A stretch of DNA of 64,000 bases. It comes from Pontibacter litorisediminis. GTDB lineage: Bacteria; Bacteroidota; Bacteroidia; Cytophagales; Hymenobacteraceae. This document shows positions 2,947 to 62,962 of the stretch, one piece after another (position 1 is the stretch's first letter; each line of letters opens with the position of its first letter). The stretch is taken from assembly GCF_029360645.1 (NCBI RefSeq), contig NZ_JARDUA010000001.1:1-64000 (forward strand), read 5' to 3'. Below the pieces are notes generated by a model that was not told the origin of the DNA, searched no databases, and was given only the letters and a program-made list of their open reading frames with translations. The position numbers were made by a program, and so were the translations under genes.

Positions 2947-2977
2947 TTTGACAAGTATACTTCTCTATGTATATTTG
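2947..2977 (+). promoter_or_regulatory. Promoter of tRNA-Cys (Bacteroidota type)
   Basis: TTTG at 2947-2950, a 19-base spacer and TATATTTG at 2970-2977 match the Bacteroidota -33/-7 promoter. The tRNA begins 20 bases after the -7 box. The spacer contains the palindrome AAGTATACTT, a fused pair of the heptamer enriched in this window. Confidence 0.75.
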
Positions 2978-2996
2978 CACTCCAATCGAACAACAC

Positions 2997-3067
2997 GGTA
3001 ACGTGGCCGAGTGGCTAGGCTCAGCTCTGCAAAAGCTGCTACAGCGGTTCGAATCCGCTCGTTACCT
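2997..3067 (+). tRNA. tRNA-Cys (anticodon GCA)
   Basis: The acceptor arms GGTAACG (2997-3003) and CGTTACC (3060-3066) pair perfectly. The anticodon stem CAGCT/AGCTG (3022-3026, 3034-3038) closes the loop CTGCAAA with anticodon GCA at 3029-3031. The T arm contains GGTTCGAATCC. The discriminator base is T at 3067, and CCA is not encoded. Confidence 0.95.
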
Positions 3068-3068
3068 C

Positions 3069-3108
3069 AAACCCTGCTAAGTATACTTGGCAGGGTTTCT
3101 TTTTTTTA
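3069..3108 (+). terminator. Terminator of tRNA-Cys with an AAGTATACTT loop
   Basis: AAACCCTGC (3069-3077) pairs with GCAGGGTTT (3090-3098), followed by a T-rich tract. The apical part is the self-complementary AAGTATACTT, so the hairpin can extend almost to its tip. The arm begins directly after the tRNA discriminator. Confidence 0.85.
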
Positions 3109-3448
3109 TCCTCTTCTTATTTCCGTCTGTTTTGCCTTCTCGGCTAAGACTGTTTCGCCTCTGCTAGGCAACCGCCGGCCTATTTTATGCAGATCTTCTT
3201 AATCTTTTAGTACCTAAATCCGTAATGTCCATAGCCAAGGTTGGTATAGGTCGCTTCCAAAAAGAGCACCTAAACCGGCCGGAATTCTAAATAAGCAACA
3301 GAATAGCTCATTCTCATAAACTTAAGGAATTGCACACTACAGGAGCCACATCAGAAACAACGCAGATCCCAAGAGACAAAAGCAGCATACGTGATGAGGG
3401 AGAAATCCCTGCACAAGCTTAAACACACAGCTTATCCAGCGAACAAAG
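3109..3448. other. Intergenic stretch before cphA
   Basis: About 340 bases of mixed composition. I see no gene, hairpin or TAnnTTTG box that I can support; a 63-codon frame at 3011-3202 runs across the tRNA and its terminator and is rejected. Confidence 0.5.
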
Positions 3449-6076
3449 ATGAAGATCATAGATTTGCGCATCATGCGCGGACCAAATTACTGGTCAGTAA
3501 AACACCCTAAGCTTATCGTAATTAAGTTAGACCTGGAAGAGTTTAGCCAGCAGTCGACCAGCGATATCCCCCATTTTATTACCAGGTTGAAGAAAATGTT
3601 CCCTGAAATGCAGAGCCACCGGGCAGCAGAGGGCGTGGAGGGCGGCTTCTTTAACTCGGTGGAGGAGGGCACCACGTTTGCACACGTTGTGCAGCATGTG
3701 GCACTGGAACTCCAAACCATGGCCGGTATGGAAAGCGGCTATGGCCGTTGCTATCCGGCGCATGAGGACGGGCACATGATCGTGGTGTATTCTTACCAGG
3801 AGGAACGGGCCGGGGAGTATGCCGCCTACGCAGCCGTGCGCATCACCCAAGCGCTGGCCACCGGGCAGCAATACAAACTTAGCGAGGATATTGTACGGCT
3901 TCACGAAATTCGGGAGGATGAGTATTTTGGCCCTAGCACCTATGCCATTGTGTCGGAGGCGGTAAGCCGGGGTATTCCTTATATTCGCTTGAACCGCCAC
4001 TCGCTCATACAGTTGGGTTATGGCGTGAATCAGAAGCGCATACAGGCCACCATGACATCGAGCACCGCCTGTTTTGCCGTTGAGATCGCCGGCGATAAGA
4101 AGGCAACGAAGGACTTGCTGGAAGATGCCGGTATACCGGTGCCAAAGGGCCGTACCATTTACTCTTCAGAGGAGCTGAAGAAGGCGGTAAACTGGCTGGG
4201 CTTTCCGATCGTGATCAAGCCGATTGATGGCAACCACGGCAAAGGTGCGACCATCAATATCTCCAGCCTAAAAGATGCGCAGAAGGGCTTTCTGGAAGCG
4301 AGGAAATACTCTGAGGGCGTGATGGTGGAGCAGTACATACAAGGCTTCGACTTCAGGCTGCTGGTGATAAACGGCAAGTTTGTAGCGGCTGCCAAGCGCA
4401 CCCCGGCTATGGTCACCGGTGACGGTGTTTCCACGGTCAAGCAACTCATCGAAAAGGAAAACAAAGATCCGCGCCGCGGCATAGGGCACGAAAAAGCGCT
4501 CACCCGGATAAAGCTGGACAAGCATACCCAGAACCTCCTGAAACAGCAGAACCTAACCACCGCATCGGTACTGCCGGCAGGGGAGGTCCTTTACCTGAAG
4601 AGTACCGCCAACATCAGCACCGGGGGCACGGCCACAGACGTTACTGACTTGGTAGACCCTTATAATGTGCTCATGGCAGAGCGCATCGCCGGGCTTGTCG
4701 GCCTGGATATATGCGGCATCGATGTGATGACCACGGACATTGCCATTCCCTTGAACGAGGCGCGAGGGGCTGTGCTGGAGGTAAATGCGGCCCCTGGTTT
4801 CCGGATGCACATTTCGCCAACCTACGGTCTGCCACGGAACGTGGCCGAGCCGGTGGTAGACATGCTCTTCCCGCGCAACAAGCCGGCACGTATCCCGATA
4901 ATCGCGGTAACCGGTACCAACGGCAAAACTACCACCACCCGCCTCATCGCACACATGGTGAGGCACAAGGGATACCAGGTGGGCTACACCACAACAGAAG
5001 GTATTTACATACAGGACAAGCTGCTGGAGAAAGGTGACACCACCGGCTCTTACAGTGCCCAGTTCGTGCTGAAGGACCCGACGGTGAACTTCGCGGTGCT
5101 GGAGTGCGCCAGAGGCGGATTGCTGCGCTCGGGCCTTGGCTTTGAGCAGTGCGATATTGGTATCGTGACTAACGTCAGCTCTGACCACCTGGGCCTAGGC
5201 GACATTCATACTTTGGAGGAGTTGGCGCGCCTGAAATCGGTTGTGCCAAGGAGTGTGAGCAAGGATGGCTACGCAGTGCTGAATGCCGATGATGACCTGG
5301 TGTACGCCATGGCCGAGGACATGAGCTGTAAAGTAGCCCTGTTCAGTATGGATGAGGAGAACCCACGCATCCTGAAGCACATCGCCAAAGGAGGCCTGGC
5401 CGCGGTGTTTGAGAACGGCTACATTTCCATCTTCAAAAACAGTTACAAGATCAGGATAGACCGCGTGGCGGACGTGCCCCTGACATTTGGTGGCAAGGCA
5501 CGGTTTAACATCGAGAACATCCTGGCGGCGGCGCTAGCTGGCTATATCTCGCATTTTTATATAGAGGACATCAAAACTTCGCTGCGCACCTTTATACCAT
5601 CGCCGAGCAAAACGCCGGGCCGCATGAACCTCTTTAAGTTTCCTGCGTTTGAGGTGCTGGTGGACTACGCTCACAACGTGGGCGGCCTGAAAGCTGTAGG
5701 CGATTACATGAATGCGCTGGATGTGACCAAGAAGGTAGGCATCGTGGCTGCGGTAGGGGACCGCCGGGAGGAGGACTTTTATGAAATAGGCCGAGTATCG
5801 GGGGAGATCTTCGATGAGATCATCGTGCGGTTGGATGCAGATTTGCGCGGCAAAACGCCAAAGGAAATTCTGGGGCCGGTGTTAAAGGGCATTGAGGAGA
5901 CGGGTGCAGGCAAGCCGGTTCGGCAGATACCAGAAGAGATGCGGGCCATTGCCTATGCCTTGGAGAACGCTGAGCCCGGCTCCATGGTGGCGATCTTTAC
6001 CGAAGATGTGCACGAATCAGTGAAAATGGTAGAGAGTTTCAAGGTTATTCAGGACAGGAAGGTGTTTGTAGAATAA
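3449..6076 (+). CDS. cphA: Cyanophycin synthetase
   Basis: CphA polymerises aspartate and arginine into the storage polypeptide cyanophycin, using ATP and working without a template. The 875-residue protein has the family order: an N-terminal domain (about 1-165), an ATP-grasp domain (about 210-475) and a Mur-ligase-like domain with the P-loop GTNGKTT at residues 489-495 and DYAHN near 737. Length matches the family (about 870-900). The start is the first ATG of the conserved N-terminus (MKIIDLRIMRGPNYWSV). No cyanophycinase or isoaspartyl dipeptidase lies beside it in the window, although such partners are often adjacent. A terminator follows. Confidence 0.95.
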   Translation: MKIIDLRIMRGPNYWSVKHPKLIVIKLDLEEFSQQSTSDIPHFITRLKKMFPEMQSHRAAEGVEGGFFNSVEEGTTFAHVVQHVALELQTMAGMESGYGRCYPAHEDGHMIVVYSYQEERAGEYAAYAAVRITQALATGQQYKLSEDIVRLHEIREDEYFGPSTYAIVSEAVSRGIPYIRLNRHSLIQLGYGVNQKRIQATMTSSTACFAVEIAGDKKATKDLLEDAGIPVPKGRTIYSSEELKKAVNWLGFPIVIKPIDGNHGKGATINISSLKDAQKGFLEARKYSEGVMVEQYIQGFDFRLLVINGKFVAAAKRTPAMVTGDGVSTVKQLIEKENKDPRRGIGHEKALTRIKLDKHTQNLLKQQNLTTASVLPAGEVLYLKSTANISTGGTATDVTDLVDPYNVLMAERIAGLVGLDICGIDVMTTDIAIPLNEARGAVLEVNAAPGFRMHISPTYGLPRNVAEPVVDMLFPRNKPARIPIIAVTGTNGKTTTTRLIAHMVRHKGYQVGYTTTEGIYIQDKLLEKGDTTGSYSAQFVLKDPTVNFAVLECARGGLLRSGLGFEQCDIGIVTNVSSDHLGLGDIHTLEELARLKSVVPRSVSKDGYAVLNADDDLVYAMAEDMSCKVALFSMDEENPRILKHIAKGGLAAVFENGYISIFKNSYKIRIDRVADVPLTFGGKARFNIENILAAALAGYISHFYIEDIKTSLRTFIPSPSKTPGRMNLFKFPAFEVLVDYAHNVGGLKAVGDYMNALDVTKKVGIVAAVGDRREEDFYEIGRVSGEIFDEIIVRLDADLRGKTPKEILGPVLKGIEETGAGKPVRQIPEEMRAIAYALENAEPGSMVAIFTEDVHESVKMVESFKVIQDRKVFVE

Positions 6077-6132
6077 ACCGGCCGGCATCGCGTTAGAAGA
6101 AAAAAGATTGATATAAATGTGAACGATGGACT

Positions 6133-6163
6133 AAAGCCCCTGCCCCAGGTAAGGGCTTTTTTT
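6133..6163 (+). terminator. Terminator of cphA
   Basis: AAAGCCC (6133-6139) pairs with GGGCTTT (6153-6159), with the T run continuing to 6163. It is 57 bases after the cphA stop. Confidence 0.75.
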
Positions 6164-6207
6164 ATTGCCTGGGCCCAACAAAACCATCACCACCAAAAAC
6201 TGCTCAT

Positions 6208-6240
6208 AAAAATAGCCCCTGCCGCAGTGGCAGGGGCTAT
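6208..6240 (-). terminator. Terminator of the minus-strand coiled-coil gene
   Basis: A perfect 12-bp stem, ATAGCCCCTGCC (6212-6223) with GGCAGGGGCTAT (6229-6240) around GCAGT. The five A at 6208-6212 give the T run on the minus strand. It separates the convergent cphA and the gene at 6266. Confidence 0.85.
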
Positions 6241-6265
6241 ATACTTTGGCTAAAGTATAAAATCC

Positions 6266-7207
6266 TTATTTCAGCACGAAAGTGGTCTTCCCGATCAGGA
6301 AGCCTTCAGCGTACAGTTCAACGGTGTGCTCACCCTTCTTGTACTCCGCGTTCTTATCGTAGGTAAAGCTCAGGGCCTGCTGAGTGTTATCAAACACAAA
6401 GTCGCGCTTGGCAGTGTAGTACATGTCTTCGCCATCGATCTGGAAAGTACCAGAACCGGTGGAAAGGTTATAAAGCGCCGCGCCGTCCGGCTCTATCAGG
6501 CGCATGTAAACGGTTTTAGGCTCTTTCTTAGCCACATCATTTTTGGCCAGTTTGAAGTCTATACGCAGCTTGTCTACCCGCTTGGCACGGAACTCGTTGT
6601 CGCTATCCTCTTTCTCTTTACCGCGCTGGTTAATGATGTTTACGTTCAGGCCTTGCGCCTCCAGTTTAGAAGCCACACGAACCTGCTGGTTCAGTTCCTG
6701 GTTGGTGGAGCGCATAGTGGTCAGGCTGTCGGCCATACGGGTCTGCGTCGTCTTCAGCTCCGTATTCTCCGTGAAGAGCACCTCATTGTCTTGCTTCAGG
6801 CGGGCTATCTCGTTATCCTTCTCCTGCAGTTGCTTCTCGAAGGCCGCTGCCCTGTCGCGGAAGCGGCGCTGGTCTGCCAGGCTATAGCTTCTCTTTCTGA
6901 AACCGCGCAGCTCTTCCAGATCGGCCGTGATGCTGGCAATCTGCGACTCCAGTGAATCGTTTTCCAGGCCCATGGCACTCAACTCCTGGCTCTGACGCTC
7001 GAAATCAGCCTTCAATGCCTCATACACCTTGATCTGGTTTTCCAGCTCCTTGTTCTTAACATTGATGATCTCAGCCTGCTCCTCGGTTTTTTCTTTTTTC
7101 TGATAGTTCATGTAGATCAGAATGCCGTTGATGCTGATGAGCACCACTAAAAGGCCTCCGATCAGGAGTTTGCGGTTACTGCGATTCTCAGGAGTGTTTG
7201 TAGACAT
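6266..7207 (-). CDS. Conserved coiled-coil membrane-anchored protein, function unknown
   Basis: The 313-residue product has one N-terminal membrane segment (about 14-34, rich in Leu, Val, Ile and Gly). Then comes a long coiled coil (about 38-190) with heptad patterns rich in Glu, Gln, Lys and Leu, and a C-terminal beta-type domain (about 205-313) ending in Lys. With a short cytoplasmic N-terminus, most of the protein would lie outside the inner membrane. I recognise no named family beyond hypothetical proteins of related Bacteroidota. The gene is monocistronic, with a terminator on one side and a divergent methyltransferase on the other. A structural or scaffolding role is only a guess. Confidence 0.85.
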   Translation of the reverse strand: MSTNTPENRSNRKLLIGGLLVVLISINGILIYMNYQKKEKTEEQAEIINVKNKELENQIKVYEALKADFERQSQELSAMGLENDSLESQIASITADLEELRGFRKRSYSLADQRRFRDRAAAFEKQLQEKDNEIARLKQDNEVLFTENTELKTTQTRMADSLTTMRSTNQELNQQVRVASKLEAQGLNVNIINQRGKEKEDSDNEFRAKRVDKLRIDFKLAKNDVAKKEPKTVYMRLIEPDGAALYNLSTGSGTFQIDGEDMYYTAKRDFVFDNTQQALSFTYDKNAEYKKGEHTVELYAEGFLIGKTTFVLK

Positions 7208-7282
7208 ATATTATCTGTTTGATTAACCGATGTTATACATTAGCTTTAGGAAGCTCACTAAAATCATACTTAGTGCAAAAGT

Positions 7283-7290
7283 CAAATATA
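7283..7290 (-). promoter_or_regulatory. Putative -7 box for the coiled-coil gene
   Basis: On the minus strand this reads TATATTTG, matching TAnnTTTG, 75 bases before the start codon at 7207. The divergent gene starts at 7318, so the box lies in the shared 110-base gap. Confidence 0.4.
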
Positions 7291-7317
7291 TAAATTAGAT
7301 TTTATAATAGGAGCAAG

Positions 7318-7926
7318 ATGAATCAAGATTTTAACGCCGCCTATTGGCAGCAGCGCTACCAGCAGAACGAGACGGGCTGGGATGTCGGAGGTATAACGCC
7401 GCCGCTAAAGCATTATTTTGATCAGCTTAAAAACAAAAACCAGCGTATTTTAATTCCGGGATGCGGCAACGCCTATGAGGCGGAATATTTGCATAAAAAC
7501 GGCTTCCGGAACGTTTACGTAGCGGATGTGGCGGAAGCTCCTCTCCAGAACCTGCTGGATCGGGTTTCCGGCTTCCAGGAAGAGCACCTGCTGCACCAGG
7601 ATTTCTTTGCTCTGGAGGGGACCTATGACCTTGTCGTGGAGCAGACCTTCTTCTGCGCCCTTGACCCAAGCCTGCGCCCTGCTTACGCCCGAAAATGCGC
7701 TGAACTGCTTCAGCTAAAAGGTATACTGATGGGCCTGCTGTTTGATACTACATTTGAGAAGGATGGCCCACCTTTTGGCGGCAGCCGCGAAGAGTATGAA
7801 ACCTATTTTGCACCGTACTTCGATTTTCTGCATTTCGACACCGCCTATAGCTCCATACCACCCCGGCAAGGCAAGGAGCTGTTTATCGAGTTAAAAAGTT
7901 TGGGAGTGAGAGAGTTAAAGAGTTAG
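7318..7926 (+). CDS. TPMT-family SAM-dependent methyltransferase
   Basis: This is a 202-residue class I methyltransferase of the thiopurine S-methyltransferase type. The N-terminus (YWQQRYQQNETGWD) and the SAM-binding loop ILIPGCGNAYEAEYL near residue 43 are typical, as is VEQTFFCALDP further on. Bacterial members methylate small thiol, halide or chalcogen compounds; the substrate cannot be read from sequence. The last codons (from about 7889) lie within the left arm of a long intergenic inverted repeat, so the C-terminus (ELKSLGVRELKS) may have been contributed or replaced by the repeat. Confidence 0.9.
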   Translation: MNQDFNAAYWQQRYQQNETGWDVGGITPPLKHYFDQLKNKNQRILIPGCGNAYEAEYLHKNGFRNVYVADVAEAPLQNLLDRVSGFQEEHLLHQDFFALEGTYDLVVEQTFFCALDPSLRPAYARKCAELLQLKGILMGLLFDTTFEKDGPPFGGSREEYETYFAPYFDFLHFDTAYSSIPPRQGKELFIELKSLGVRELKS

Positions 7927-8062
7927 AAGTTCGGATGGGGCATACTGCAGGGAAGTTTCATTTGTGAAAGGAGAAAATTACAAGAATAGGTTGGGGTGAA
8001 GTTCATCGTTTGGACTTACTGCCCCTCTAACCCCTAAACTCCCAAACTCTCTAACTTTCTAG
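7889..8062. repeat. Long imperfect inverted repeat overlapping a gene end
   Basis: The left arm (7889-7932) is made of degenerate units such as GAGTTAAA, GAGTTAGA and GTTTGGGAGT. The right arm (8024-8062) is their reverse complement, with ACTCCCAAACT and CTCTCTAACTTTC. The central part is unrelated. The arms match with mismatches and small shifts. The left arm runs through the stop codon of the upstream methyltransferase, and the right arm ends beside a -7 promoter box for kdsA. Confidence 0.65.
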
Positions 8063-8063
8063 T

Positions 8064-8071
8064 TACCTTTG
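8064..8071 (+). promoter_or_regulatory. Putative -7 box for kdsA
   Basis: TACCTTTG fits TAnnTTTG and lies 26 bases before the kdsA start. There is no clear -33 TTTG, because the upstream sequence is the right arm of the inverted repeat. Confidence 0.4.
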
Positions 8072-8097
8072 TGGCAAGATTTAAAGTATAAAAACCT

Positions 8098-8910
8098 ATG
8101 TTCGAGATACCAAAACTGAAGCATACAGACAGCGGCAACTTCTTTCTGATGGCCGGCCCCTGTGCCATAGAGGGCGAGGAGATGGCCATGGATATTGCCG
8201 GGCGCATCAAAACAATCACAGACAAGCTGCAGATTCCGTGGATCTTTAAAGGGTCTTACCGCAAGGCAAACCGCTCGCGCCTCGACTCGTTCTGCGGCAT
8301 CGGCGACGAAAAAGCCCTGCGCATACTGGAGAAGGTGGGCAAAGAGTTTGATGTGCCGACCGTAACTGACATACATGAGAGCGGAGAGGCTGCCATGGCC
8401 GCCGAATACGTGGATGTGCTGCAAATTCCGGCTTTCCTTTGCCGCCAGACGGACCTTCTGGTAGCTGCCGCTAAAACCGGTAAGGTGGTGAACATCAAGA
8501 AGGGCCAGTTCCTGTCTGGCGAGGCCATGCGCTTTGCCGTGGATAAGGTGCGCGAGTCTGGAAACGACAAGGTTATCCTTACTGATCGTGGCAACAGCTT
8601 CGGCTACTCCGACCTGGTGGTGGATTTCCGTAATATCCCCGCCATGCAAGGTGCCTCAGGGGTTCCTGTGGTGATGGACGTGACGCATTCGCTGCAGCAG
8701 CCGAACCAAAGCTCCGGTGTAACGGGCGGCAAGCCAGCCCTGATCGAAACGATTGCCAAAGCGGCCATTGCCGTAGGGGCGGATGGTCTATTTATCGAAA
8801 CGCACCCACAGCCAAGTATCGCCAAGTCTGATGGGGCCAACATGCTGCCGCTCGACCAACTGGAGGCGCTGCTGCAAAAGCTCGTGCGCATCCGCCAAGC
8901 CATCAGCTAA
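8098..8910 (+). CDS. kdsA: 3-deoxy-8-phosphooctulonate synthase (KDO-8-P synthase)
   Basis: KdsA condenses phosphoenolpyruvate with arabinose 5-phosphate to make KDO 8-phosphate, a precursor of the lipopolysaccharide inner core. The 270-residue protein has the TIM-barrel signatures of the family: AGPCAIEGEE at residues 19-28, the phosphate-binding KGSYRKANRS at 51-60, and RGNSFGYSDLVVDFR further on. Length is as expected. It is monocistronic between two repeat-bearing gaps. Confidence 0.96.
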   Translation: MFEIPKLKHTDSGNFFLMAGPCAIEGEEMAMDIAGRIKTITDKLQIPWIFKGSYRKANRSRLDSFCGIGDEKALRILEKVGKEFDVPTVTDIHESGEAAMAAEYVDVLQIPAFLCRQTDLLVAAAKTGKVVNIKKGQFLSGEAMRFAVDKVRESGNDKVILTDRGNSFGYSDLVVDFRNIPAMQGASGVPVVMDVTHSLQQPNQSSGVTGGKPALIETIAKAAIAVGADGLFIETHPQPSIAKSDGANMLPLDQLEALLQKLVRIRQAIS

Positions 8911-8934
8911 ACTTCTGACAAAAGAAAACTAGAC

Positions 8935-8973
8935 AAAGGACAAAAGACGCTTTCGCAGCCTCTTTTGTCCTTT
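8935..8973 (+). terminator. Terminator-like inverted repeat after kdsA
   Basis: AAAGGACAAAAGA (8935-8947) pairs perfectly with TCTTTTGTCCTTT (8961-8973). Degenerate copies of the same unit flank it: GACAAAAGAAAA upstream and CTTTGTCCTTT at about 8985. The arms thus follow the same short-tandem-unit design as the other intergenic palindromes. It may act as a terminator for kdsA. Confidence 0.6.
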
Positions 8974-9049
8974 ATTTATTAACCCTTTGTCCTTTATTAA
9001 ATTGGCTATTGACCCGGGTCGTGGCATTTGATACGAGCCACGTGAATGG

Positions 9050-9835
9050 CTAAAAGTGTAAAGTGAAGTCCTCCTTCGGTTGCTGCGGCCGGAAGAAAAC
9101 TAGTCCTACAAAGTATAAATCCACAGTCTGCCGCACTTGCGGGTGGCGTTTAACTTCCTGCCACGCCCGCTTCATCTCGCCAGACCAGTAAATGTCGTCC
9201 AGCACCAGCACCGTGCCCTCATGGGCTTTTTTCAGGCAGCTCTCGAAGTAGCGCAAGGTGGGCTTGTAGCGGTGGTTACCGTCCAGAAAGGTAAAATCCA
9301 ATCTCTCCAGCTGCCGCAGGTGCGGTTCCAGGGTTTCATCCAGGTTGCCTTCTATTACCTGTATGTTGTGGTATCCCTGTTTGTTAAAGTTCTCCCGGGC
9401 GGTGCGGGCAATGTTGGGGCATCCCTCAAACGTATAAATCTGACCGTTTTTGCGGGCCTCGGCAAAATAGGAGGTAGTAAGGCCAAGGGAGGTGCCGAGC
9501 TCTACTATCGTTGTGGGCTGAAAGTGGTTGACCAGCCGGAAAAGCAGCTGCCCATACTTGGCGGGTTTGGCCGAGGTACGGGCAATGTCCTTTATTTTCC
9601 GGGTCCTCTGGTTTATCCTGCGTGAGCCGGCGCCGAAGTCGGTTACCTGCAGCTGACGCTCGTCGTGCAGCAATTCGTGGCGCAGCGCCTCCACGTTATC
9701 ATACGCCAGGAAATGGCCGGTATGGTGCAGCACGTTGTGGTACAGGTCGAAAACGAAAGGGGAGTGGACGCCGTGCAGCTTAAAGGCACGCATCCGGTAC
9801 AGCAGGTAATCAGCGGCTAAACTCAGGTAAGACAC
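9050..9835 (-). CDS. Class I SAM-dependent methyltransferase
   Basis: The 261-residue protein carries a SAM-binding Rossmann fold of the O-methyltransferase kind. Motif I is IVELGTSLGLTTSYFA near residue 111, followed by IYTFEGCPN, then LDFTFLDGNHRY and VLVLDDIYWSGEMKRAW. The N-terminal 90 residues (HGVHSPFVFDLY) are typical of a Bacteroidota subgroup. The substrate is unknown. The gene starts 81 bases before the end of apaG and is read in the same direction, so the two may be cotranscribed. Confidence 0.88.
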   Translation of the reverse strand: MSYLSLAADYLLYRMRAFKLHGVHSPFVFDLYHNVLHHTGHFLAYDNVEALRHELLHDERQLQVTDFGAGSRRINQRTRKIKDIARTSAKPAKYGQLLFRLVNHFQPTTIVELGTSLGLTTSYFAEARKNGQIYTFEGCPNIARTARENFNKQGYHNIQVIEGNLDETLEPHLRQLERLDFTFLDGNHRYKPTLRYFESCLKKAHEGTVLVLDDIYWSGEMKRAWQEVKRHPQVRQTVDLYFVGLVFFRPQQPKEDFTLHF

Positions 9836-9916
9836 AAGGGCTATCGTTGTGGGAAGGGCAAAAGTATGATTTTAGGTGCAGCGCTTCGGGCAAATATAAG
9901 CCTAAGCTGGTCGGGG

Positions 9917-10303
9917 CTAATTAAGTTTGTAAGGCACTACAAGCGTGAACTCAGGTATGGTTACATCAAACTTGCGGCCATCCACCATGCGCTCCATCAG
10001 GTAAGTGCCGCGCATCTTGCCAATGCCGGTTTTCAGGTTGCAGCCCGACACGTACTCGTGCATCTCGCCAGGCTCTAAGGTTGGCTGCTGGCCCACCACG
10101 CCTTCGCCTTCCACCTCACGCATTTGGCCAGTGGCATCGTGTATGTACCAGTGGCGGCGCAGCAGTTTAACCGTAAACTCGCTGTTATTCTCTATCTTTA
10201 TCCTATAGGCAAAAACAAAGTGCTGCTGTACCGGACTTGAGTAGTCCGGCAAGTAGTTGGTTGTAACCGTAACTTTTACACCTTCCGTTGTTTTTGTATC
10301 CAT
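9917..10303 (-). CDS. apaG: ApaG domain protein
   Basis: The 128-residue protein is a full-length ApaG (DUF525) domain, an immunoglobulin-like fold. Conserved blocks are FAYRIKIEN, LLRRHWYIHDATG, VEGEGVVGQQPTLEPGE and Y.SG..L.T..G.M.G.Y. ApaG was linked genetically to divalent cation efflux and Ap4A metabolism in enterobacteria; the biochemical role in Bacteroidota is not established. It lies upstream of, and in the same orientation as, a methyltransferase. Confidence 0.93.
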   Translation of the reverse strand: MDTKTTEGVKVTVTTNYLPDYSSPVQQHFVFAYRIKIENNSEFTVKLLRRHWYIHDATGQMREVEGEGVVGQQPTLEPGEMHEYVSGCNLKTGIGKMRGTYLMERMVDGRKFDVTIPEFTLVVPYKLN

Positions 10304-10394
10304 GTTCCAGCGTTTATTGTATACTTAGAATCCATTGCGGCGGCTGCGCGTGCTGTAGCTTCTGTTAATTTAACCTAACTAGCCAAACTAACCC

Positions 10395-11057: not shown

Positions 11058-11096
11058 TTCCCAGGATGCCTTTCTTTGAGCTGGCTATACTTGGAA

Positions 11097-11114
11097 GCGA
11101 GTCTGGAGACTCGC
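11097..11114. repeat. Perfect 18-base palindrome after ung
   Basis: GCGAGTCT and AGACTCGC face each other across GG. It lies 40 bases after ung and just after a TATACTT heptamer. It has the look of a dispersed palindromic element, but I find no second copy in the window; with no T run it is a poor terminator. Confidence 0.45.
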
Positions 11115-11192
11115 ACGCACTGTGCGGCAACGGTTGGATACCGGCGCCAGGTTTTATTTAGGTAAGCCCTTCTTGCTTTGAGAGGGAAATGG

Positions 11193-14371: not shown

Positions 14372-14383
14372 AAACTTCGTACC

Positions 14384-53952: not shown

Positions 53953-53966
53953 CCACTGATCAGTGG
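53953..53966. repeat. Perfect 14-base palindrome CCACTGATCAGTGG
   Basis: It lies 176 bases upstream of the DUF2382 gene at 53274, on the promoter side, and just outside the terminator of the opposite GH20 gene. It has the form of a regulator-binding site but could equally be incidental. Confidence 0.3.
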
Positions 53967-53991
53967 TGGGCAGCATTTCAGGGCAGTGCAT

Positions 53992-54018
53992 AAAAAAGCC
54001 GGAGTTGCTGCTCCGGCT
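53992..54018 (-). terminator. Terminator of the GH20 operon
   Basis: AGCCGGAG (53997-54004) pairs with CTCCGGCT (54011-54018). Six A at 53992-53997 give the minus-strand T run. The stem ends 16 bases after the GH20 stop. Confidence 0.88.
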
Positions 54019-54034
54019 CTTTTCTTCTTGCTGG

Positions 54035-55696: not shown

Positions 55697-55764
55697 GTTG
55701 GGTAATGATGTTGTAACGCGCAAGTATAAGCAATACTTTTGAGGTGCGCACAGCACCCAATGGG

Positions 55765-56262
55765 TTATTGCTTCTCCGGCGCCTCTGCCTCCACCAACGG
55801 GATGACCAGCTCGTGCAACTGCTTGATGACCTGCTGTAGCTTCTCCGGCCCGCCCTGCTGGTGCTTCACCCGCTTCACCTCCTTGCCTTGCTTATAGAAG
55901 GTGAGGTAGGAGGAAGGCAGATCTGTGTAAGGCGATAAATAACTGTTATCTAGCGCAGTATAATCCAGGCCCTGAAGGGTAGCTTCTACTTGCTTTAGCT
56001 GCTTCTCCGAGAGCTGCAGGCGGAGCGTGTCCTGCACGGGTACATAGCGGAAGCCCTCGTAAAGCACGGTGCCGTCGCTGTAAAAGGTGGCGTTGTAGGT
56101 GGGGCAGGTGCCGTAGCAGGGAGTTTTCTGGAAAAGCAGCAGCTTTTGCGGCGGCCCCTGCCGATGGCTGCTTTGCGCACTGCCAGTGGCGCAGTTGCTT
56201 AAGACTGCGGTTCCGAGCAGGGTGATGGCGATCAACAAGTATAAGGGCAGAGGCTGCTGCAT
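55765..56262 (-). CDS. DUF6438 lipoprotein-like protein
   Basis: I choose ATG 56262 (165 residues), where a signal peptide begins (MQQPLPLYLLIAITLLGTAV) with LSNC as a likely lipobox. The conserved KTPCYGTCPTYNATFYSDGTVLYEG is the DUF6438 signature. It starts 7 bases after the preceding lipoprotein gene and is followed by GH20, 68 bases on. Envelope location is likely; the function is unknown. Confidence 0.87.
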   Translation of the reverse strand: MQQPLPLYLLIAITLLGTAVLSNCATGSAQSSHRQGPPQKLLLFQKTPCYGTCPTYNATFYSDGTVLYEGFRYVPVQDTLRLQLSEKQLKQVEATLQGLDYTALDNSYLSPYTDLPSSYLTFYKQGKEVKRVKHQQGGPEKLQQVIKQLHELVIPLVEAEAPEKQ

Positions 56263-56269
56263 GCTTCTT

Positions 56270-56866
56270 TTAGTTCTGTTCCTGCTCCAGTTTACGAAAT
56301 TTCCCGCCAATAAACTCATAAGCCTCCGGGGTGCAGCTGTTGCATGCTTCGTAATTCACGGCAGAGTCGGGTGGGTTGATGATGAACAGGCGGCTGTCGG
56401 CGCTGTAGCTGGCCCCCATGCTGCTCTGCACTTTGTCCAGTACTTTTCCGGTTTCGCGGTCCACTACAAGATGCTGCTGGCAGCCGGTGCCGCAGCCGAT
56501 GCTGACCACTGTGTACTTCCTGGCAAAGTTTACCCCTTCCTCTAATCCTTTTCGAAGCATGGTGCGGTAGGTGCGGGCATCGTTATGGCTGCTTTCGTCC
56601 AGCGGTGCCAGGTTGCCACGGTACATGTCGCTGACATCATAACTGCCGCTGTTCCTGTACTGTTCGGTAGTAATCAGGTAGCGGTTGTACAGGTCTTTGT
56701 CTTTGCTGCTGTCGCTGTAAGGAACCGTTAGCGAGTCCTGGGCCAGGTCTTCGGCCAGCTTCGGGTGTGTGCCAGCCAAGCCCTTTTCCTGCTCTGTGCG
56801 CTCCTGGCAGCTTGCCAGCAGCAGCAAGAGCAAGTACGGGGTCAGTCGTTTGATGTGTTTCTTCAT
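56270..56866 (-). CDS. Lipoprotein, function unknown
   Basis: I choose ATG 56866 (198 residues) with a signal peptide (MKKHIKRLTPYLLLLLLASC, lipobox LASC) followed by a charged linker. The middle and C-terminal parts contain Cys pairs (VVSIGCGTGCQQHLVVD and EACNSCTPEAYEF) that could form disulfides. The DPDSAVNYEAC-like ending and GSGTGCQ pattern occur in uncharacterised proteins of many proteobacteria and bacteroidetes. It opens the operon lipoprotein-DUF6438-GH20. Confidence 0.82.
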   Translation of the reverse strand: MKKHIKRLTPYLLLLLLASCQERTEQEKGLAGTHPKLAEDLAQDSLTVPYSDSSKDKDLYNRYLITTEQYRNSGSYDVSDMYRGNLAPLDESSHNDARTYRTMLRKGLEEGVNFARKYTVVSIGCGTGCQQHLVVDRETGKVLDKVQSSMGASYSADSRLFIINPPDSAVNYEACNSCTPEAYEFIGGKFRKLEQEQN

Positions 56867-56958
56867 ATATAGTATACATACGCACGTAAGCCGCCTGAAG
56901 TATAAATCACAGGTGTGCAGCACGAATTTTGATAGATGTTGTTGGACAAGGCAGGGGC

Positions 56959-56996
56959 AAAAAAAAACCTTTCCGGTTTAGGAAAGGCTTTTTTTA
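56959..56996 (-). terminator. Terminator of pyrG-yidC
   Basis: CCTTTCC (56968-56974) pairs with GGAAAGG (56981-56987). The A run at 56959-56967 gives nine T on the minus strand. It lies 16 bases after the yidC stop. Confidence 0.9.
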
Positions 56997-57011
56997 GTCG
57001 AAGCAAGGGGC

Positions 57012-58847
57012 TTATTTCTTGGCTTTGTTGCGCTTTTGCTGCTCACGGTCTTGTGCCTGACGCATCGCCTCCTGCATACGCTCTGTAAACGATGGGCCGC
57101 CTTTTGCCTTTTTCTCCTTAATCTTGTGCTTGTTGTCCTCCAGCTTGGTCCTGATCTTAGACTCATCCACAAAGTAACGGATAGCAGCCTGCTGGCCGAA
57201 GGTCACGATGTTGGACACAAAGTAGTAGAACGAAAGGCCGGCAGGGAAGGAGTTCAGTACGAACATGAAGATCACAGGCATCAGGTAGCTGTAAAACTTC
57301 ATCGGGCCCTGCATAGAGGTGTTGATCTGGTTGTTAGACCAGGTATAAAGTATGGTGGAAGCCGTCATCAGCAGCGTGAACATACTTACGTGGTCGCCAT
57401 AGAACGGGATGGTGAACGGCAGGCGCATGAACACGTCGTAAGTTGAGAGGTCATCCGCCCAAAGGAAAGCCTCCTGGCGCAGCTCAATAGAGTTCGGGAA
57501 GAAGTTGAACATCGCGAACAGAATAGGGATCTGCAGCAGCATAGGGATACAGCCGCTCAGCGGGTTCACACCCATCTCCTGGTACAGCTTCATGGTCTCC
57601 ATCTGCGTCTTCTGCATGTCGCCCTCGTTGCGCTCCTTGATGGCGTCAATCTCCGGCTTCAGCACCTTCATCTTCGCCATCGACAAGTATGACTTGTAGG
57701 TGAGTGGGAAGAGGATGGTCTTGATGTAGAGCACCAGCAGGATGATGATAATGCCATAGTTGCCGATGAAGTTCTCCAGGAAGTCGAAGGCCGGGATTAT
57801 CACCCACTTGTTTACATAGGAGAAAATACCCCAGCCCAGGTCCAGGTTCTTGTCGAAATCGTGTCCGATGTGCTTGAGGATCTTGTAATCGTTCGGGCCG
57901 AAGTAGAACATGAACTCAGCGCCTTCGCCGCTTACTACCTCCTTGGCAGGTATGAACATCTCAGAAGCCATTGTCTTAACCACGGTAGTGTCAGCCGGGT
58001 CTACTGAGGAGGTCATGCGGGCGCCGGAGAACTGGCTGCCGGCGATGATGCCGGCCGTAAAGAAGTTCTGCTTGTTGGCCACCCACTTCACCGGCTCGTC
58101 CAGCGACATGGTTTCTTTCTCCTCTGAGATGGAAAGGTGGTCAAACCCTTCCTCCACAGTGGCGAAGTTGATGGTAGACTTTGCTCTGTTCTGCTTCAGG
58201 TCGCGCTCCAGCTGCTTCAACCGGTCGTTCCAGGTAAAAATCAGCTGCTCGCCTGCCACCTGTTGCTCCAGGCCCTCAAAAGCCAGCCGGTAGCCCAGCA
58301 TAAAGTTCTCGTCGTAGAGCGTGTACACCTGGTCGATGTACTGGCCGTTGCCGAGGTTGGCCCGGAAGGAGATGGTCTTGCCGGCCTTGCCATCAGCAGT
58401 TACTTCCTTTACCTCCGAGGCGGTGAAGTACAGGTCGGAGAGCTGCACTTTCCGGCCGTCTTTTGTCGTGAAGGCAACGTCGGTGTTGCTGCTCTCGCTA
58501 TCGAACAGGACAAGTGGCTCGCCCTGGTACGTCTTATAGTTTTTCAGCAGCACTTCCTCCACCTGTCCGCCTTTGGTGTTCAGGCTAACACGGATGTTGC
58601 CGTTCTCCAGGATGGTGGTGCTGGCCTGGCCGGTAGCGGCTGCGCCAAACGTGCCCAGCGCTGCTACTCTGCGGGCCTGTGCCACCGAGTCTTCTGTTTC
58701 CGGAGCGGCAGGGGCTTGCAGCTGCTCTACTTTGGCTGTTTCCTGCACTGCCTGCTGCGCTGGTTGCTCCGTACTCCCGAAAAAGAACGAGTACGCCAGC
58801 AGTAGCACGGCAATCAGTCCAAAGCCAATCGCTTGATTTCTGTCCAT
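57012..58847 (-). CDS. yidC: Membrane protein insertase YidC
   Basis: YidC inserts and folds inner-membrane proteins, alone or with SecYEG. The 611-residue protein has the N-terminal membrane segment (about 5-20), a large periplasmic domain (about 60-350) and five C-terminal membrane segments, with YGIIIILLVLYIKTILFPLTYKSY, QEMGVNPLSGCIPMLLQIPILFAMFNFFP and FVLNSFPAGLSFYYFVSN as family signatures. The last residues are basic (KKAKGGPSF, NKAKK), as expected. It follows pyrG by 31 bases. Confidence 0.95.
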   Translation of the reverse strand: MDRNQAIGFGLIAVLLLAYSFFFGSTEQPAQQAVQETAKVEQLQAPAAPETEDSVAQARRVAALGTFGAAATGQASTTILENGNIRVSLNTKGGQVEEVLLKNYKTYQGEPLVLFDSESSNTDVAFTTKDGRKVQLSDLYFTASEVKEVTADGKAGKTISFRANLGNGQYIDQVYTLYDENFMLGYRLAFEGLEQQVAGEQLIFTWNDRLKQLERDLKQNRAKSTINFATVEEGFDHLSISEEKETMSLDEPVKWVANKQNFFTAGIIAGSQFSGARMTSSVDPADTTVVKTMASEMFIPAKEVVSGEGAEFMFYFGPNDYKILKHIGHDFDKNLDLGWGIFSYVNKWVIIPAFDFLENFIGNYGIIIILLVLYIKTILFPLTYKSYLSMAKMKVLKPEIDAIKERNEGDMQKTQMETMKLYQEMGVNPLSGCIPMLLQIPILFAMFNFFPNSIELRQEAFLWADDLSTYDVFMRLPFTIPFYGDHVSMFTLLMTASTILYTWSNNQINTSMQGPMKFYSYLMPVIFMFVLNSFPAGLSFYYFVSNIVTFGQQAAIRYFVDESKIRTKLEDNKHKIKEKKAKGGPSFTERMQEAMRQAQDREQQKRNKAKK

Positions 58848-58878
58848 TTACTCTTTTGTTGTGTTGTGTGTATTGCGC

Positions 58879-60492
58879 TTATTTAGATTTAGCATAGTTA
58901 ATGGCCGCCTTCACGAACTTGACGAAGAGCGGGTGAGGGTTCAACACCGTGCTCTTCAGCTCAGGGTGATACTGCGCTGCCACAAACCATGGGTGGTTCT
59001 GCAGCTCAATGATTTCTACCAACCCTGTTTCCGGGTTAATGCCTGTGGCTACCATGCCCGCCTCCTCAAAGGCCTGCAGGTACTTGTTGTTGAACTCGTA
59101 ACGGTGGCGGTGGCGCTCTGAAATTTTAGCCTTGCCGTAAATAGAATAAGCCCTGGAGCCTTTTTTTAGTTCACAAGTGTAGGCTCCCAGGCGCATGGTG
59201 CCGCCCATTTGCGTAATTTGTTTCTGGTCTTCCATCATATCGATGACCGGGTGCGGCGTGTCGGCATCCATTTCAGTAGAGGCGGCACCGTCCAGTTTCA
59301 GCACGTTGCGGGCAAACTCCACCGCAGCGCACTGCATGCCCAGGCAGATGCCCAGGAATGGGATGCCTTTTTCCCGAACGAAGCGTATCGCCTCCAGCTT
59401 TCCCTTGAAGCCGCGCTCGCCGAAGCCTGGGGCCACCAGCACGGCATCCATGCCTTGCAGCAAGCCTGTCACGTTCTCATCGGAGATGTTCTCAGACTGG
59501 AACCACTTGATGTTGACTTTGCACTCGTTGGCAGCGCCAGCATGCACAAATGACTCTATAATAGATTTATACGCATCCGGAAGCTCCACATACTTGCCAA
59601 CCAGGGCAATATTTACCTCAGAGGTAGGGTTCTTCAGGCGGCCCAGGAATTCTTTCCAGGTATCCAGGTTCGGATCGGCCCGGTGCGGCAGCTTCAGTTT
59701 GGCGATCACGCGCTCGTCCAGCTTCTCCTTGCGCATCAGCAAGGGCACGTCATAAATCGTCTCCGCGTCAATCGACTCGATCACTGAGTTCTGCTTCACG
59801 TTGCAGAAGAGGGCTATTTTCTTGCGCAGGTCTGCCGGGATAGGGTGCTCTGTGCGGCAAACCAGTATATCAGGCTGCACGCCGGCCTCCGAAAGGTCGC
59901 GAACCGAGTGCTGCGTTGGCTTCGTCTTCAGCTCGCCGGCCGCTTTCAGGTAAGGCACCAGCGTCAGGTGCACCACGCACGACTCATGCACGCCCAGCTC
60001 CCAGCGCAGCTGGCGCACGGCCTCGATGAACGGCAACGACTCAATATCCCCCACACAGCCACCGATTTCCGTAATCACGATGTCGTACTCCCCGGTCTGG
60101 CCCAGCAGCAGCATGCGGCGCTTTATCTCGTCCGTGATGTGCGGCACCACCTGCACCGTCTTGCCCAGGTACGCTCCCTCGCGCTCCTGCGTGATGACGT
60201 GGTGGTAAATGCGGCCGGTAGTCACGTTGTTCGCCTGCGATGTAGGCACGTTCAGGAAACGCTCGTAGTGGCCCAGGTCCAGGTCGGTTTCGGCGCCATC
60301 CTCGGTTACAAAGCACTCGCCATGCTCGTAAGGGTTCAGCGTGCCCGGGTCAATGTTGATGTAAGGGTCAAATTTTTGGATGGTTACAGAGAAACCCCTT
60401 GCCTGCAGCAACTTAGCAAGAGATGCGGATATGATGCCTTTTCCGAGGGAGGAGGTTACCCCGCCAGTAACAAAAATATATTTCGTAGCCAT
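58879..60492 (-). CDS. pyrG: CTP synthase
   Basis: PyrG makes CTP from UTP using ATP and glutamine. The 537-residue protein has the synthetase domain (KYIFVTGGVTSSLGKGI with the P-loop, DPYINIDPGTL, ITEIGGCVGDIESLPFIEA) and the glutamine amidotransferase domain with the nucleophile Cys in FLGICLGMQCAAVEFAR and the late His/Glu. Length matches the family. It leads the pyrG-yidC pair. Confidence 0.97.
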   Translation of the reverse strand: MATKYIFVTGGVTSSLGKGIISASLAKLLQARGFSVTIQKFDPYINIDPGTLNPYEHGECFVTEDGAETDLDLGHYERFLNVPTSQANNVTTGRIYHHVITQEREGAYLGKTVQVVPHITDEIKRRMLLLGQTGEYDIVITEIGGCVGDIESLPFIEAVRQLRWELGVHESCVVHLTLVPYLKAAGELKTKPTQHSVRDLSEAGVQPDILVCRTEHPIPADLRKKIALFCNVKQNSVIESIDAETIYDVPLLMRKEKLDERVIAKLKLPHRADPNLDTWKEFLGRLKNPTSEVNIALVGKYVELPDAYKSIIESFVHAGAANECKVNIKWFQSENISDENVTGLLQGMDAVLVAPGFGERGFKGKLEAIRFVREKGIPFLGICLGMQCAAVEFARNVLKLDGAASTEMDADTPHPVIDMMEDQKQITQMGGTMRLGAYTCELKKGSRAYSIYGKAKISERHRHRYEFNNKYLQAFEEAGMVATGINPETGLVEIIELQNHPWFVAAQYHPELKSTVLNPHPLFVKFVKAAINYAKSK

Positions 60493-60814
60493 AAGTTAGG
60501 TTAAACTTTATGGGCTACAAAGGTACTGGATTTATTTGATTAACCTGACATTTCCGGAACAGTTTACCCCGTGTCATATGGATATCTTTCTTAATATTCA
60601 AGTGTGATTTCCATGAAAAAGCAGAAAGTATTCAGAAGTCTTAATGTTTCGGCGTCCGGGCCGCGCTTCACTGCTAACGTACTGCACAGGGGCTCTCCGC
60701 CAGCCGGAGGAACATACCTGGCAGTGCAAGAGCGGAAGGCGGCGGCACTAGCTATAAACTATGGCTTAACCGCTTGCGTAGGAAATAGCCTCTCCTTGTC
60801 GATAACAAAAAAGT
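60493..60814. other. Gap between divergent pyrG and the GH15 gene
   Basis: About 320 bases. The minus-strand TACCTTTG (CAAAGGTA at 60518-60525 on the plus strand) is a likely -7 box for pyrG. A 110-codon plus frame at 60604-60936 overlaps the GH15 start in another frame and is rejected. No promoter for the GH15 gene was found. Confidence 0.5.
60518..60525 (-). promoter_or_regulatory. Putative -7 box for pyrG
   Basis: On the minus strand this reads TACCTTTG, matching TAnnTTTG, 26 bases before the pyrG start codon at 60492. No clear -33 element was found. Confidence 0.4.
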
Positions 60815-62650
60815 ATGAACGAAGGCCACCAAAAGTACTTACCCATAGAAGACCATGGGATCATCGGAGACCTGAACACCGTCGCGCTGGTGGGGCTCAA
60901 CGGCACCATCGACTTCATGTGCTTCCCGTACTTTGACTCGCCCTCCATTTTTGCCTCGCTTCTGGACGCTGAGAAGGGGGGCTGCTTTTCTGTCAGCCCC
61001 ATCGTCCACGATGGCATCAAGCACAAGCAGCTTTACCTGCCCGATACCAACGTGCTGCTCACCCGCTTTCTGTCGGACAATGGCATCGGGGAGATAACAG
61101 ACTTCATGCCGGTGGAAGAGCTGGACCAGGGCAGCGAGCTTATCAGAAGGGTATCCTGTGTGCACGGTGACATGGCCTTCCGGATGCACTGCAGCCCGCG
61201 CTTTAACTACGCCAAGGCAGCGCATGAGGTAAGCCTGGTAAACGAGAACGAGCTCCTGTTCAGCAGCAGCGGCCCCGACGGGATGGTGATCCGCCTAAAA
61301 AGCAGCGTGCCGCTGCAAGTGGAAGGCAGAGACGTGACAGCCACGTTTAGCCTGAAGACAGGGGAGAAGGCGGATTTTATACTTGAGCATGCCACCTGTG
61401 ACACACCTTCTGCTTACGACCTGGAGCATTTTGTTACCAAGAGCCTCTATGACACGATCGATTACTGGAAAAACTGGGTAGCCAGCTGTAGCTACAGAGG
61501 CCGCTGGATGGATATTGTGAGCCGCTCTGCCCTCGTGCTGAAGCTGATGACCTCTCATAAGTACGGATCCATGGTGGCGGCCCCTACTTTTGGGCTGCCC
61601 GAGGAGATCGGGGGTGTGCGCAACTGGGATTACCGCTATACCTGGATACGGGATGCCTCCTTTACAGTGTATGCCCTGCTGCGGCTGGGCTACAAGCAGG
61701 AGGCCAAGGACTTTGTGGATTGGGTGGACCGCCAGTGCGACGATGTGGGAAGCGCAGGCTATCTGCGGCTGATGTATACTTTGAGCGGGAAGCTGGAGCT
61801 GGAAGAAATTAGCCTGGATCACCTGGAGGGGTACAAAGGCTCCAGCCCTGTGCGCATCGGCAACGGAGCCTACGATCAGGTGCAGCTGGATATATATGGA
61901 GAGCTTTTAGACTCCGTGTACCTCTACGACAAGTATGGCACCCCGATTTCCTGGGAGTTCTGGAACGACCTTCGCCGGCAGGTGGAGTGGGTGTGCGACA
62001 ACTGGCACCGCAAGGATGAGGGTATTTGGGAGGTAAGAGGCGGCAAAAAGCATTTCCTGTACTCCAGGATGATGTGCTGGGTGGCCATAGACAGGGCCAT
62101 GAGGATCGCCAACCATCATTCGTACCCGCTTCCGGCCAGGTGGCGGGAGGAGCGTGATAAGATATTTTTCTCTATACATGAGGAGTTCTGGGACGAGAAG
62201 CTGCAGTGCTTTGTGCAGTACAAAGGGGCGGAGACCGTGGATGCAGCCACCTTGCTGATGCCGCTGATACGCTTCATCAGCCCCAAAGACCCCCGCTGGA
62301 TCTCGACCATGCAGCGCCTGGAGGAGCGGCTGGTGTCTGATGCGCTCGTTTTCCGCTACCGCACCATAGAGTCCTTCGACGGGCTTGCGGGTGGGGAAGG
62401 CACTTTCTCGATGTGCACGTTCTGGTACGTGGAGTGCCTGGCAAAATCAGGGCAGGTGGACAAAGCTAGGCTATACTTCGAGAAGATGCTGGGCTATGCC
62501 AACCACCTGGGCCTGTATGCTGAAATGCTGGGGCTGAAGGGAGACCACCTGGGCAACTTTCCGCAGGCGTTTACCCACCTGGGGCTTATTAGTGCAGCGC
62601 TTAGTATAAACGATGTGCTGGAAGGGCAGGAGAACAAGCGTAAGCTGTAG
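60815..62650 (+). CDS. Glycoside hydrolase family 15 (glucoamylase/trehalase-like)
   Basis: GH15 enzymes release glucose from alpha-linked glucans, or split trehalose. The 611-residue protein has the N-terminal beta-sandwich (about 1-215, IEDHGIIGDLNTVALVGLNGTIDFMCFP in segments) and an (alpha/alpha)6 barrel. GVRNWDYRYTWIRDASF lies in the barrel, the likely general acid is Glu406 in GIWE, and the likely base is Glu528 in GGEGTFSMCTFW. No signal peptide is present, so it acts in the cytoplasm. It is monocistronic. Glucan versus trehalose cannot be decided here. Confidence 0.93.
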   Translation: MNEGHQKYLPIEDHGIIGDLNTVALVGLNGTIDFMCFPYFDSPSIFASLLDAEKGGCFSVSPIVHDGIKHKQLYLPDTNVLLTRFLSDNGIGEITDFMPVEELDQGSELIRRVSCVHGDMAFRMHCSPRFNYAKAAHEVSLVNENELLFSSSGPDGMVIRLKSSVPLQVEGRDVTATFSLKTGEKADFILEHATCDTPSAYDLEHFVTKSLYDTIDYWKNWVASCSYRGRWMDIVSRSALVLKLMTSHKYGSMVAAPTFGLPEEIGGVRNWDYRYTWIRDASFTVYALLRLGYKQEAKDFVDWVDRQCDDVGSAGYLRLMYTLSGKLELEEISLDHLEGYKGSSPVRIGNGAYDQVQLDIYGELLDSVYLYDKYGTPISWEFWNDLRRQVEWVCDNWHRKDEGIWEVRGGKKHFLYSRMMCWVAIDRAMRIANHHSYPLPARWREERDKIFFSIHEEFWDEKLQCFVQYKGAETVDAATLLMPLIRFISPKDPRWISTMQRLEERLVSDALVFRYRTIESFDGLAGGEGTFSMCTFWYVECLAKSGQVDKARLYFEKMLGYANHLGLYAEMLGLKGDHLGNFPQAFTHLGLISAALSINDVLEGQENKRKL

Positions 62651-62962
62651 GTGGTTGTTAGTTGACCGTAATTTGTTGTTCCATGTGCTTTTTTAGATGA
62701 TCGTGAGGTGTATTTATAGTTTTATACTTCTGAAGTCGTAATCCGCACGCGCTATACTTTCAGATCGCTGTTCACCAAGAGCAAGGCGTCTATCCTTCAA
62801 CATTGATTTCCCTATACCTCTCTACCTCTTTCTTCCTACCGGCCAATCTGGCACAGTTTGCCCTTTTGGCTTTTTGTTTGCTTTTGCCGTAGCTTTACCA
62901 AGGTTGGCAGGCTGCGAAAAGCGGCCGCTGCCCATGTATCACAACATACAAGTATAAATCTG
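62651..62962. other. Intergenic stretch before hslV
   Basis: About 310 bases with TATACTT at 62722 and 62753 and AAGTATA just before hslV. A TTTG (62865-62868), a 21-base spacer and TAGCTTTA (62890-62897) form a weak promoter-like pair. The frame open from 62858 is an upstream extension of hslV without family character. Confidence 0.45.
62865..62897 (+). promoter_or_regulatory. Weak promoter-like pair before hslV
   Basis: TTTG at 62865-62868, 21 bases and TAGCTTTA at 62890-62897, one mismatch from TAnnTTTG. It would start transcription about 60 bases before the hslV ATG. Confidence 0.3.

Follow-up and report, generated by a model that had tools for sequence, protein, structure and literature searches.

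Short words that mark DNA for preferential uptake in natural transformation are known from several species of two families, in systems of the Neisseriaceae and Pasteurellaceae types (PMC5031613), and both systems are tied to type IV pili. For the DNA uptake sequences (DUS) of the Neisseriaceae, dialects have been described (PMC3630211) and the distribution in mobile elements is atypical (PMC7371117). Another kind of repeated word, the highly iterated palindrome (HIP) of cyanobacteria, occurs as HIP1 or alternate HIPs at about one copy per kb, with other words in some genomes and low levels in a few relatives (PMC4390886). Among the Bacteroidota, Riemerella transforms by a route unlike the known ones, in which ComEC, DprA and an HhH protein are essential (PMC8459023), and R. 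columbina prefers its own DNA (PMC7965970). We describe here a heptamer, AAGTATA (reverse complement TATACTT), that is strongly over-represented in Pontibacter litorisediminis, a member of the same phylum, and that may be a mark of this type. The starting point was a window of 64,000 bases (positions 1 to 64,000 of contig NZ_JARDUA010000001.1), i.e., the whole stretch of DNA that was analysed.

An exact search of the window gave 70 copies of the heptamer, 35 per strand (Table 1). An earlier sequence-only reading had estimated about 60 by eye; none of its fifteen example coordinates is more than 5 bases away from a real copy (e.g., 6239 for 6240, 6248 for 6253 and 42167 for 42169), and the enriched region that it had delimited holds, apart from a start placed slightly too late, the first copy being at 338. 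AAGTATA is the top over-represented 7-mer of the window at every Markov order from 0 to 4, with expectations of 5.7, 4.0, 6.7, 13.3 and 29.0 copies, respectively, and the excess thus survives the third-order model (13.3 expected) that the same reading had named as a possible refutation. It also extends to the rest of the genome (4.99 Mb), contrary to the other refuting condition of that reading; 3,163 + 3,022 = 6,185 copies were found (1.24 per kb) against 165 + 163 = 328 of the reversed word. Across 24 congeners the heptamer has 966 to 11,818 copies.

The spelling of the word differs among congeners by clade, as AAGTATA, AACTATAG or AGGTATAG, and there is probably one further (fourth) spelling in the genus. 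Judged by the top 7-mer of 38 Pontibacter/Botryobacter loci (13–22 kb), 13 belong to what we have called dialect A (AAGTATA), five to B (AACTATA) and 12 to C (AGGTATA), the other eight having none; 17 of 20 sampled stretches from further congeners were assigned to A (seven), B (one), C (seven) or none (two). The preferred context goes beyond the heptamer: AAGTATA is followed by A in 55% of cases, AACTATA by G in 61%, and AGGTATA by G in 54%, with C before it in 50%. In a quick single-gene tree of YidC (cut to 600 residues for most rows), B is one clade, C is one clade, A needs three changes and the class without a word includes outgroups and nested lineages, i.e., the distribution of dialects follows phylogeny. 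The window groups there with P. flavimaris, P. mucosus and P. chinhatensis, and its closest named YidC relatives are Pontibacter (86–88% for the first five). Some genomes look like intermediates between dialects, such as P. ruber, with AAGTATA and AAGTATG at like levels, and isolate 903, with AACTATA together with AAGTATA. In P. harenae, AAGTATA (25 copies against 9.3 expected) is a weak relic, and Pontibacter sp. E15-1, one of the eight loci without a word, has weaker words near [AG]GGTAT[AG], at about 5–7 times the codon-shuffle level and in several frames, and is the weak candidate for the fourth dialect. Separately, we observed AGGTAGA/GGTAGAG in Botryobacter ruber (L027, L205) and CTCCGGA(G) in P. 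beigongshangensis (L042, L204), both mostly outside open reading frames (ORFs); these are perhaps short intergenic repeats.

As the sequence-only reading had noted, the word lies in genes and between them and in both directions. With ORFs called by a greedy longest-ORF rule, not by a gene finder, those of the window (55.6 kb) contain 41 copies, 19 sense and 22 antisense, where 200 codon shuffles gave 5.6 ± 2.1 with a maximum of 11, and the 8.4 kb outside ORFs contain 29. In the larger sets (taken, here and for the inverted pairs and conjugative regions below, without P. ruber (L017) in A and without isolate 903 (L026) in B) the ORF copies were 873 against 111.9 after codon shuffling in A, 240 against 29.6 in B and 409 against 41.8 in C. 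Density in A, B and C was 4.62, 9.25 and 3.78 per kb outside ORFs and 1.20, 1.88 and 1.48 inside, noncoding DNA being 2.6–4.9 times denser. For reference, 12 motif-less stretches (a set without P. harenae and E15-1, also in the neighbour spectrum below) had 39, 31 and 29 ORF copies of the three words against 23.8, 24.6 and 26.9 shuffled, AAGTATA being slightly high, and 0.29–0.31 per kb outside ORFs. The order-0 to -4 excess, the codon shuffles and the noncoding density lead us to reject composition or codon effects. That the word has no reader at all and stems from codon usage, from preferred dipeptides or from mutation that depends on context is hardly credible: a Markov model of order 5 does expect 56.9 of the 70 copies, but only because it then holds the hexamers of AAGTATA itself, and neither the shuffles in A, the still denser noncoding DNA nor the 0.29 per kb outside the ORFs of motif-less stretches agrees with this.

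The ORF copies use all six frame and orientation classes in A and C and five of the six in B; a transcript-strand signal was rejected on the sense/antisense numbers (384/490, 142/98 and 204/206 in A, B and C). The sequence-only reading had proposed looking for strand bias, and none was seen in 20 stretches of 20 kb around the 4.71-Mb contig of one congener (G001), with 282 forward and 257 reverse copies or, sorted by GC-skew strand, 273 against 266. This count tells against the polar segregation marker, one of the DNA-level roles which that reading had listed, and against a Chi-like recombination signal with a reader of the AddAB/RecBCD type. Chi is likewise a short, over-represented, asymmetric word and its spellings vary between bacteria; the well-studied Chi is, however, polar, whereas the Pontibacter word has no orientation bias, and we regard this explanation as very improbable. 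One of the 20 stretches (L120, G001:C1:2500001-2520000) has a GC of 0.46, high skew and only nine copies against a mean of 27, and is probably an acquired island.

The conservation of positions was another check that had been suggested. Within dialects, identity at aligned sites was 42.6% (A), 59.2% (B) and 67.6% (C), against 23.0, 32.5 and 33.1% for control words made by permuting the letters and scored in these alignments too, i.e., sites are kept about twice as often, all these turnover figures being counts over species pairs and not independent events. Between dialects, A to B was the sole direction of six above its control (22.7 vs. 19.4%); the values were 2.6 vs. 9.8% for A to C, 6.7 vs. 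14.1% for B to A, 1.6 vs. 9.0% for B to C, 11.2 vs. 19.5% for C to A and 7.9 vs. 20.9% for C to B. Towards motif-less species they were 12.3 vs. 15.3% (A), 4.6 vs. 13.3% (B) and 13.9 vs. 17.8% (C). AGGTATA stands at 294 of the 1,309 A-site pairs with C species.

The way in which sites deviate bears on the main rival, a HIP1-like ratchet, in which a methyltransferase or a strand-directing nicking activity would bias mismatch repair and the word would accumulate without any uptake role. Under Elhai's model for cyanobacteria, sites should number about one per kb, with other words taking their place in some genomes (PMC4390886), and the density in Pontibacter is similar; a Hymenobacter word described below, ACCTAGGT, is a palindrome, whereas AAGTATA, AACTATAG and AGGTATAG are asymmetric. 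One-mismatch words were seen within dialects in 20 (A), 19 (B, without isolate 903) and 20 (C) of 21 cases and at all seven positions, the deviations at positions 1–7 being 34, 39, 16, 24, 18, 50 and 35 in A, 26, 21, 32, 16, 7, 13 and 15 in B, and 141, 63, 21, 37, 81, 24 and 76 in C. The last series is partly end-heavy; overall, the three dialects do not have the bias to word ends of the HIP type. Neighbours of the A word are near baseline, with observed to expected ratios (O/E) of 0.68 to 2.87 except for AAGTATG (4.63). Low words do occur, namely AACTAGA in B (three copies, O/E 0.21) and five in C (O/E 0.56–0.68), and some of them are also low in motif-less species. The spectrum is poorly explained in A, and less clearly so in C, by one context-dependent mutation or by a single step of repair. 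The sequence-only reading had left the choice between a DNA-level role and a mutational bias; the role gains support and simple mutational conversion becomes less likely, since the one-mismatch words of A are not strongly depleted and all seven positions change.

Family profiles were searched in 44 genomes, 31 of them Pontibacter (PF02384 in 37). Among amino-methyltransferases, PF07669 was over cut-off in 40/44 genomes (strong in 24) and PF02384 in 36/37 (strong in 30), and PF01555 gave any match in 22/44. For none of these three families did all motif-bearing genomes show a strong match (E < 1e-20; C5 and Dam types were not searched), and P. cellulosilyticus, of dialect A, had a strong match to none of them. 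The asymmetry of the words, the neighbours of the A word and this lack of a common strong match weaken the ratchet; because methyltransferase families pass their cut-offs so widely, we hold it to be an unlikely but still serious competitor.

The word is scarce in conjugative DNA. The Bacteroidetes-type TraG (TIGR03783), searched in the 31 motif-bearing genomes, is present in 11 of them at 17 places, 16 of which were analysed. These regions (303 kb) contain 66 copies of the host word (O/E 1.67, 0.22 per kb), whereas 422 kb of core loci from these 11 genomes contain 832 (O/E 11.7, 1.97 per kb); O/E was 0–3.1 in 15 of the 16 regions. Such scarcity, with a word found genome-wide, on both strands and in noncoding DNA too, would also suit sites that are bound by an abundant protein of the chromosome (acting in the nucleoid, in segregation or in marking self against a defence system) and that were selected inside the cell. 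Any one of the roughly 6,000 sites would nevertheless be under very weak selection, and the dialects of related species rewrite sites; this explanation seems to us quite unlikely.

Copies in either orientation and in several frames, far more than codon shuffling yields, the absence of strand skew, the clade dialects and the scarcity in conjugative regions argue for a role at the DNA level. Symmetric, ubiquitous, permissively placed, dialect-forming and rare in conjugative DNA, the word is built like an uptake-type self mark under drive. By analogy, AAGTATA(A) may mark self-DNA for recognition in natural transformation, with molecular drive maintaining the copies, a proposal that we see as evenly poised between right and wrong and in which we infer both the uptake role of the reader and the drive; within the DNA-level roles that had been listed, uptake or recognition would fit best. 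A putative sequence-specific DNA-binding component would read this chromosomal tag, most probably at the surface of cells undergoing natural transformation, and kin DNA would be preferred over foreign DNA. Each event of uptake and recombination would spread tag-bearing alleles, so that tags would build up wherever they are tolerated. Drift in the specificity of the reader would cause sites to be rewritten (e.g., AAGTATA to AGGTATA), generating dialects, and tags would decay where reading was lost.

Several points weigh against the uptake reading. We know of no competence test in Pontibacter. The type IV pilus/type II secretion ATPase (PF00437) was over cut-off in 0/31 Pontibacter (pilins and secretin were not searched); it passed in only one of the 44 genomes, a Hymenobacter, with weak matches (E ≤ 0.001) in 36. 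ComEC, DprA and HHH_3 were matched in 44/44 genomes, the last including, among the matches listed, proteins of about 310–330 residues with two or three matches; the presence of ComEC and DprA suits transformation, but all three are equally present in motif-less species and do not explain presence or absence of the word. The determinant searches found no receptor, and nothing in the comEC neighbourhoods of 20 genomes (with three reference loci read) told species rich in the motif from those lacking it. One conjugative region from the window's own genome (L213) has an O/E of 6.6; it may include chromosome or long-resident DNA. Inverted pairs of the word are not enriched beyond same-strand pairs: in A, 70 and 52 were found against 31.8 expected each, with 131 same-strand pairs against 63.6, and in B and C they are less enriched than same-strand pairs (15 and 23 against 23.5; 9 and 9 against 14.2). 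In R. columbina, the top k-mers are only A-rich, at 2–7 times composition (PMC7965970). We do not class the word as a DUS, because the pilus ATPase was not found above cut-off, no receptor was found and the uptake role is putative.

Two other candidates did not gain support. DUF5689 (PF18942), which occurs in a Riemerella transformation protein, was matched in 23/44 genomes (21 over cut-off) and does not track the motif, the form of 410–450 residues appearing in one dialect-A genome among those searched. Where their surroundings were read, DUF5689 genes (L140, L141, L142, L159–L161) adjoin SusD-like, SusC-like, PLD-like or phosphatase/nuclease-looking genes, and these loci possibly serve DNA or phosphate scavenging. 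A general terminator role is not supported, inverted pairs showing no overall excess, although the window has examples (Table 1). The palindrome formed by overlapping opposed copies, AAGTATACTT, occurs 122 times in the genome (6,185 words), where its reversed control occurs once; across 36 congeners the palindrome has 5 to 259 copies. By its genes, the window is ordinary chromosome, with ribosomal protein S1, cyanophycin synthetase, MurA, biotin carboxylase, a SusC-type receptor, YidC and CTP synthase.

Table 1. Copies of the heptamer and related features in the 64,000-base window.
Feature	Position	Strand	Basis
AAGTATA	starts 338, 2953, 3079, 6253, 8084, 9111, 11584, 11620, 14228, 14384, 17014, 18948, 19006, 25802, 26744, 26889, 26958, 28886, 29050, 30363, 31561, 38668, 38891, 38918, 39042, 40052, 45319, 45379, 46291, 47032, 49557, 55722, 56237, 56898, 62950	+	exact search
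TATACTT	starts 2956, 3082, 6240, 10320, 11086, 13455, 13813, 13967, 14433, 19389, 20894, 25847, 26892, 27140, 29018, 30208, 30366, 33458, 34269, 36307, 39526, 40036, 42169, 42989, 46894, 47080, 47465, 50445, 51330, 55156, 61378, 61775, 62472, 62723, 62753	-	exact search
Whole set of 70 copies	338..62956	both	exact search
AAGTATACTT, overlapping opposed pair	2953..2962		exact search
AAGTATACTT within GC-rich inverted repeat just past tRNA gene (2997-3067), terminator-like	3079..3088		
Hairpin-like opposed copies, 6-base gap	6240..6259		
Long near-perfect inverted repeat, opposed word copies at both ends, terminator-like	14384..14439		from sequence
AAGTATACTT, overlapping opposed pair	26889..26898		exact search
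AAGTATACTT, overlapping opposed pair	30363..30372		exact search
Hairpin-like opposed copies, 9-base gap	40036..40058		
Long near-perfect inverted repeat, opposed word copies at both ends, terminator-like	47032..47086		from sequence
AAGTATAA, own word of motif-rich Pontibacter, as distinct from the B and C dialect words			

Outside Pontibacter, eight of 31 Hymenobacter/Solirubrum loci have a different word that is comparably enriched (z 11–29) at a similar density: ACCTAGG(T) in four (L053, L056, L065, L083), CTAGGCC(A) in two (L057, L060) and CCTACCC in two (L058, L068). These words exceed the codon shuffle 8–14 fold (89 vs. 6.3, 48 vs. 5.8 and 56 vs. 5.7) and are denser outside ORFs than inside. 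Some are palindromic, and they may represent the same phenomenon or a different one. Among eight Rufibacter and three Adhaeribacter loci, only Rufibacter immobilis had a high word, CGTTTAG (z 11; L047, L163), which was set aside as part of a longer repeat element around CGTTTAGGGGCT. Beyond these genera, no convincing case was seen in the order (18 stretches analysed, after one of 67 bases was dropped). Other false leads were ACAGGAA in L171, with 25 of its 26 ORF copies in one frame, and the most enriched words in L168 (z 17) and in L169 (z 87), which look like local repeats.

A literature search, whose coverage excluded most subscription journals, found no description of such a word for Pontibacter or Hymenobacter. 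Uptake of self-DNA by sequence could have arisen independently a third time, in the Bacteroidota, with several dialects in Pontibacter, unrelated words in Hymenobacter and, as surface receptor, something other than a type IV pilin, a suggestion that we lean slightly against. Should the uptake reading hold, a tag with apparent living transitions between dialects, in a phylum whose transformation route is different and little understood, would make it possible to test whether drive or selection gives rise to tags, what reads them and whether species are isolated by their dialects. It would also offer a way to the Bacteroidota DNA receptor, through a search for genes that vary in step with the dialects. 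If the ratchet were true instead, we would be dealing with a HIP system outside cyanobacteria and with an asymmetric word.

With the HIPs, the Pontibacter words share a copy density of about one per kb and word replacement among relatives (PMC4390886); they differ in being asymmetric and changing at all positions, whereas HIPs are palindromic, tied to methyltransferases and biased to the word ends in their deviations. Riemerella belongs to the same phylum and has in common the presence of ComEC, DprA and HhH proteins, those of Pontibacter being like the transformation proteins of R. anatipestifer by description, not by sequence comparison; the top k-mers there are A-rich words and not one discrete word with dialects. 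From DUS and the uptake signal sequences (USS) of the Pasteurellaceae type, the Pontibacter word is set apart by the phylum, by a length of 7–9 bases against 9–12, by variable bases within the 7-mer, by a type IV pilus ATPase that does not reach cut-off, by a receptor that was looked for and not found and by the absence of a general excess of inverted pairs. Nonetheless, it resembles the DUS (read by the ComP receptor) and USS in being a short asymmetric word with thousands of copies, about one per kb, with dialects that follow phylogeny and an atypical distribution in conjugative elements (PMC3630211, PMC7371117, PMC12616744, PMC5031613).

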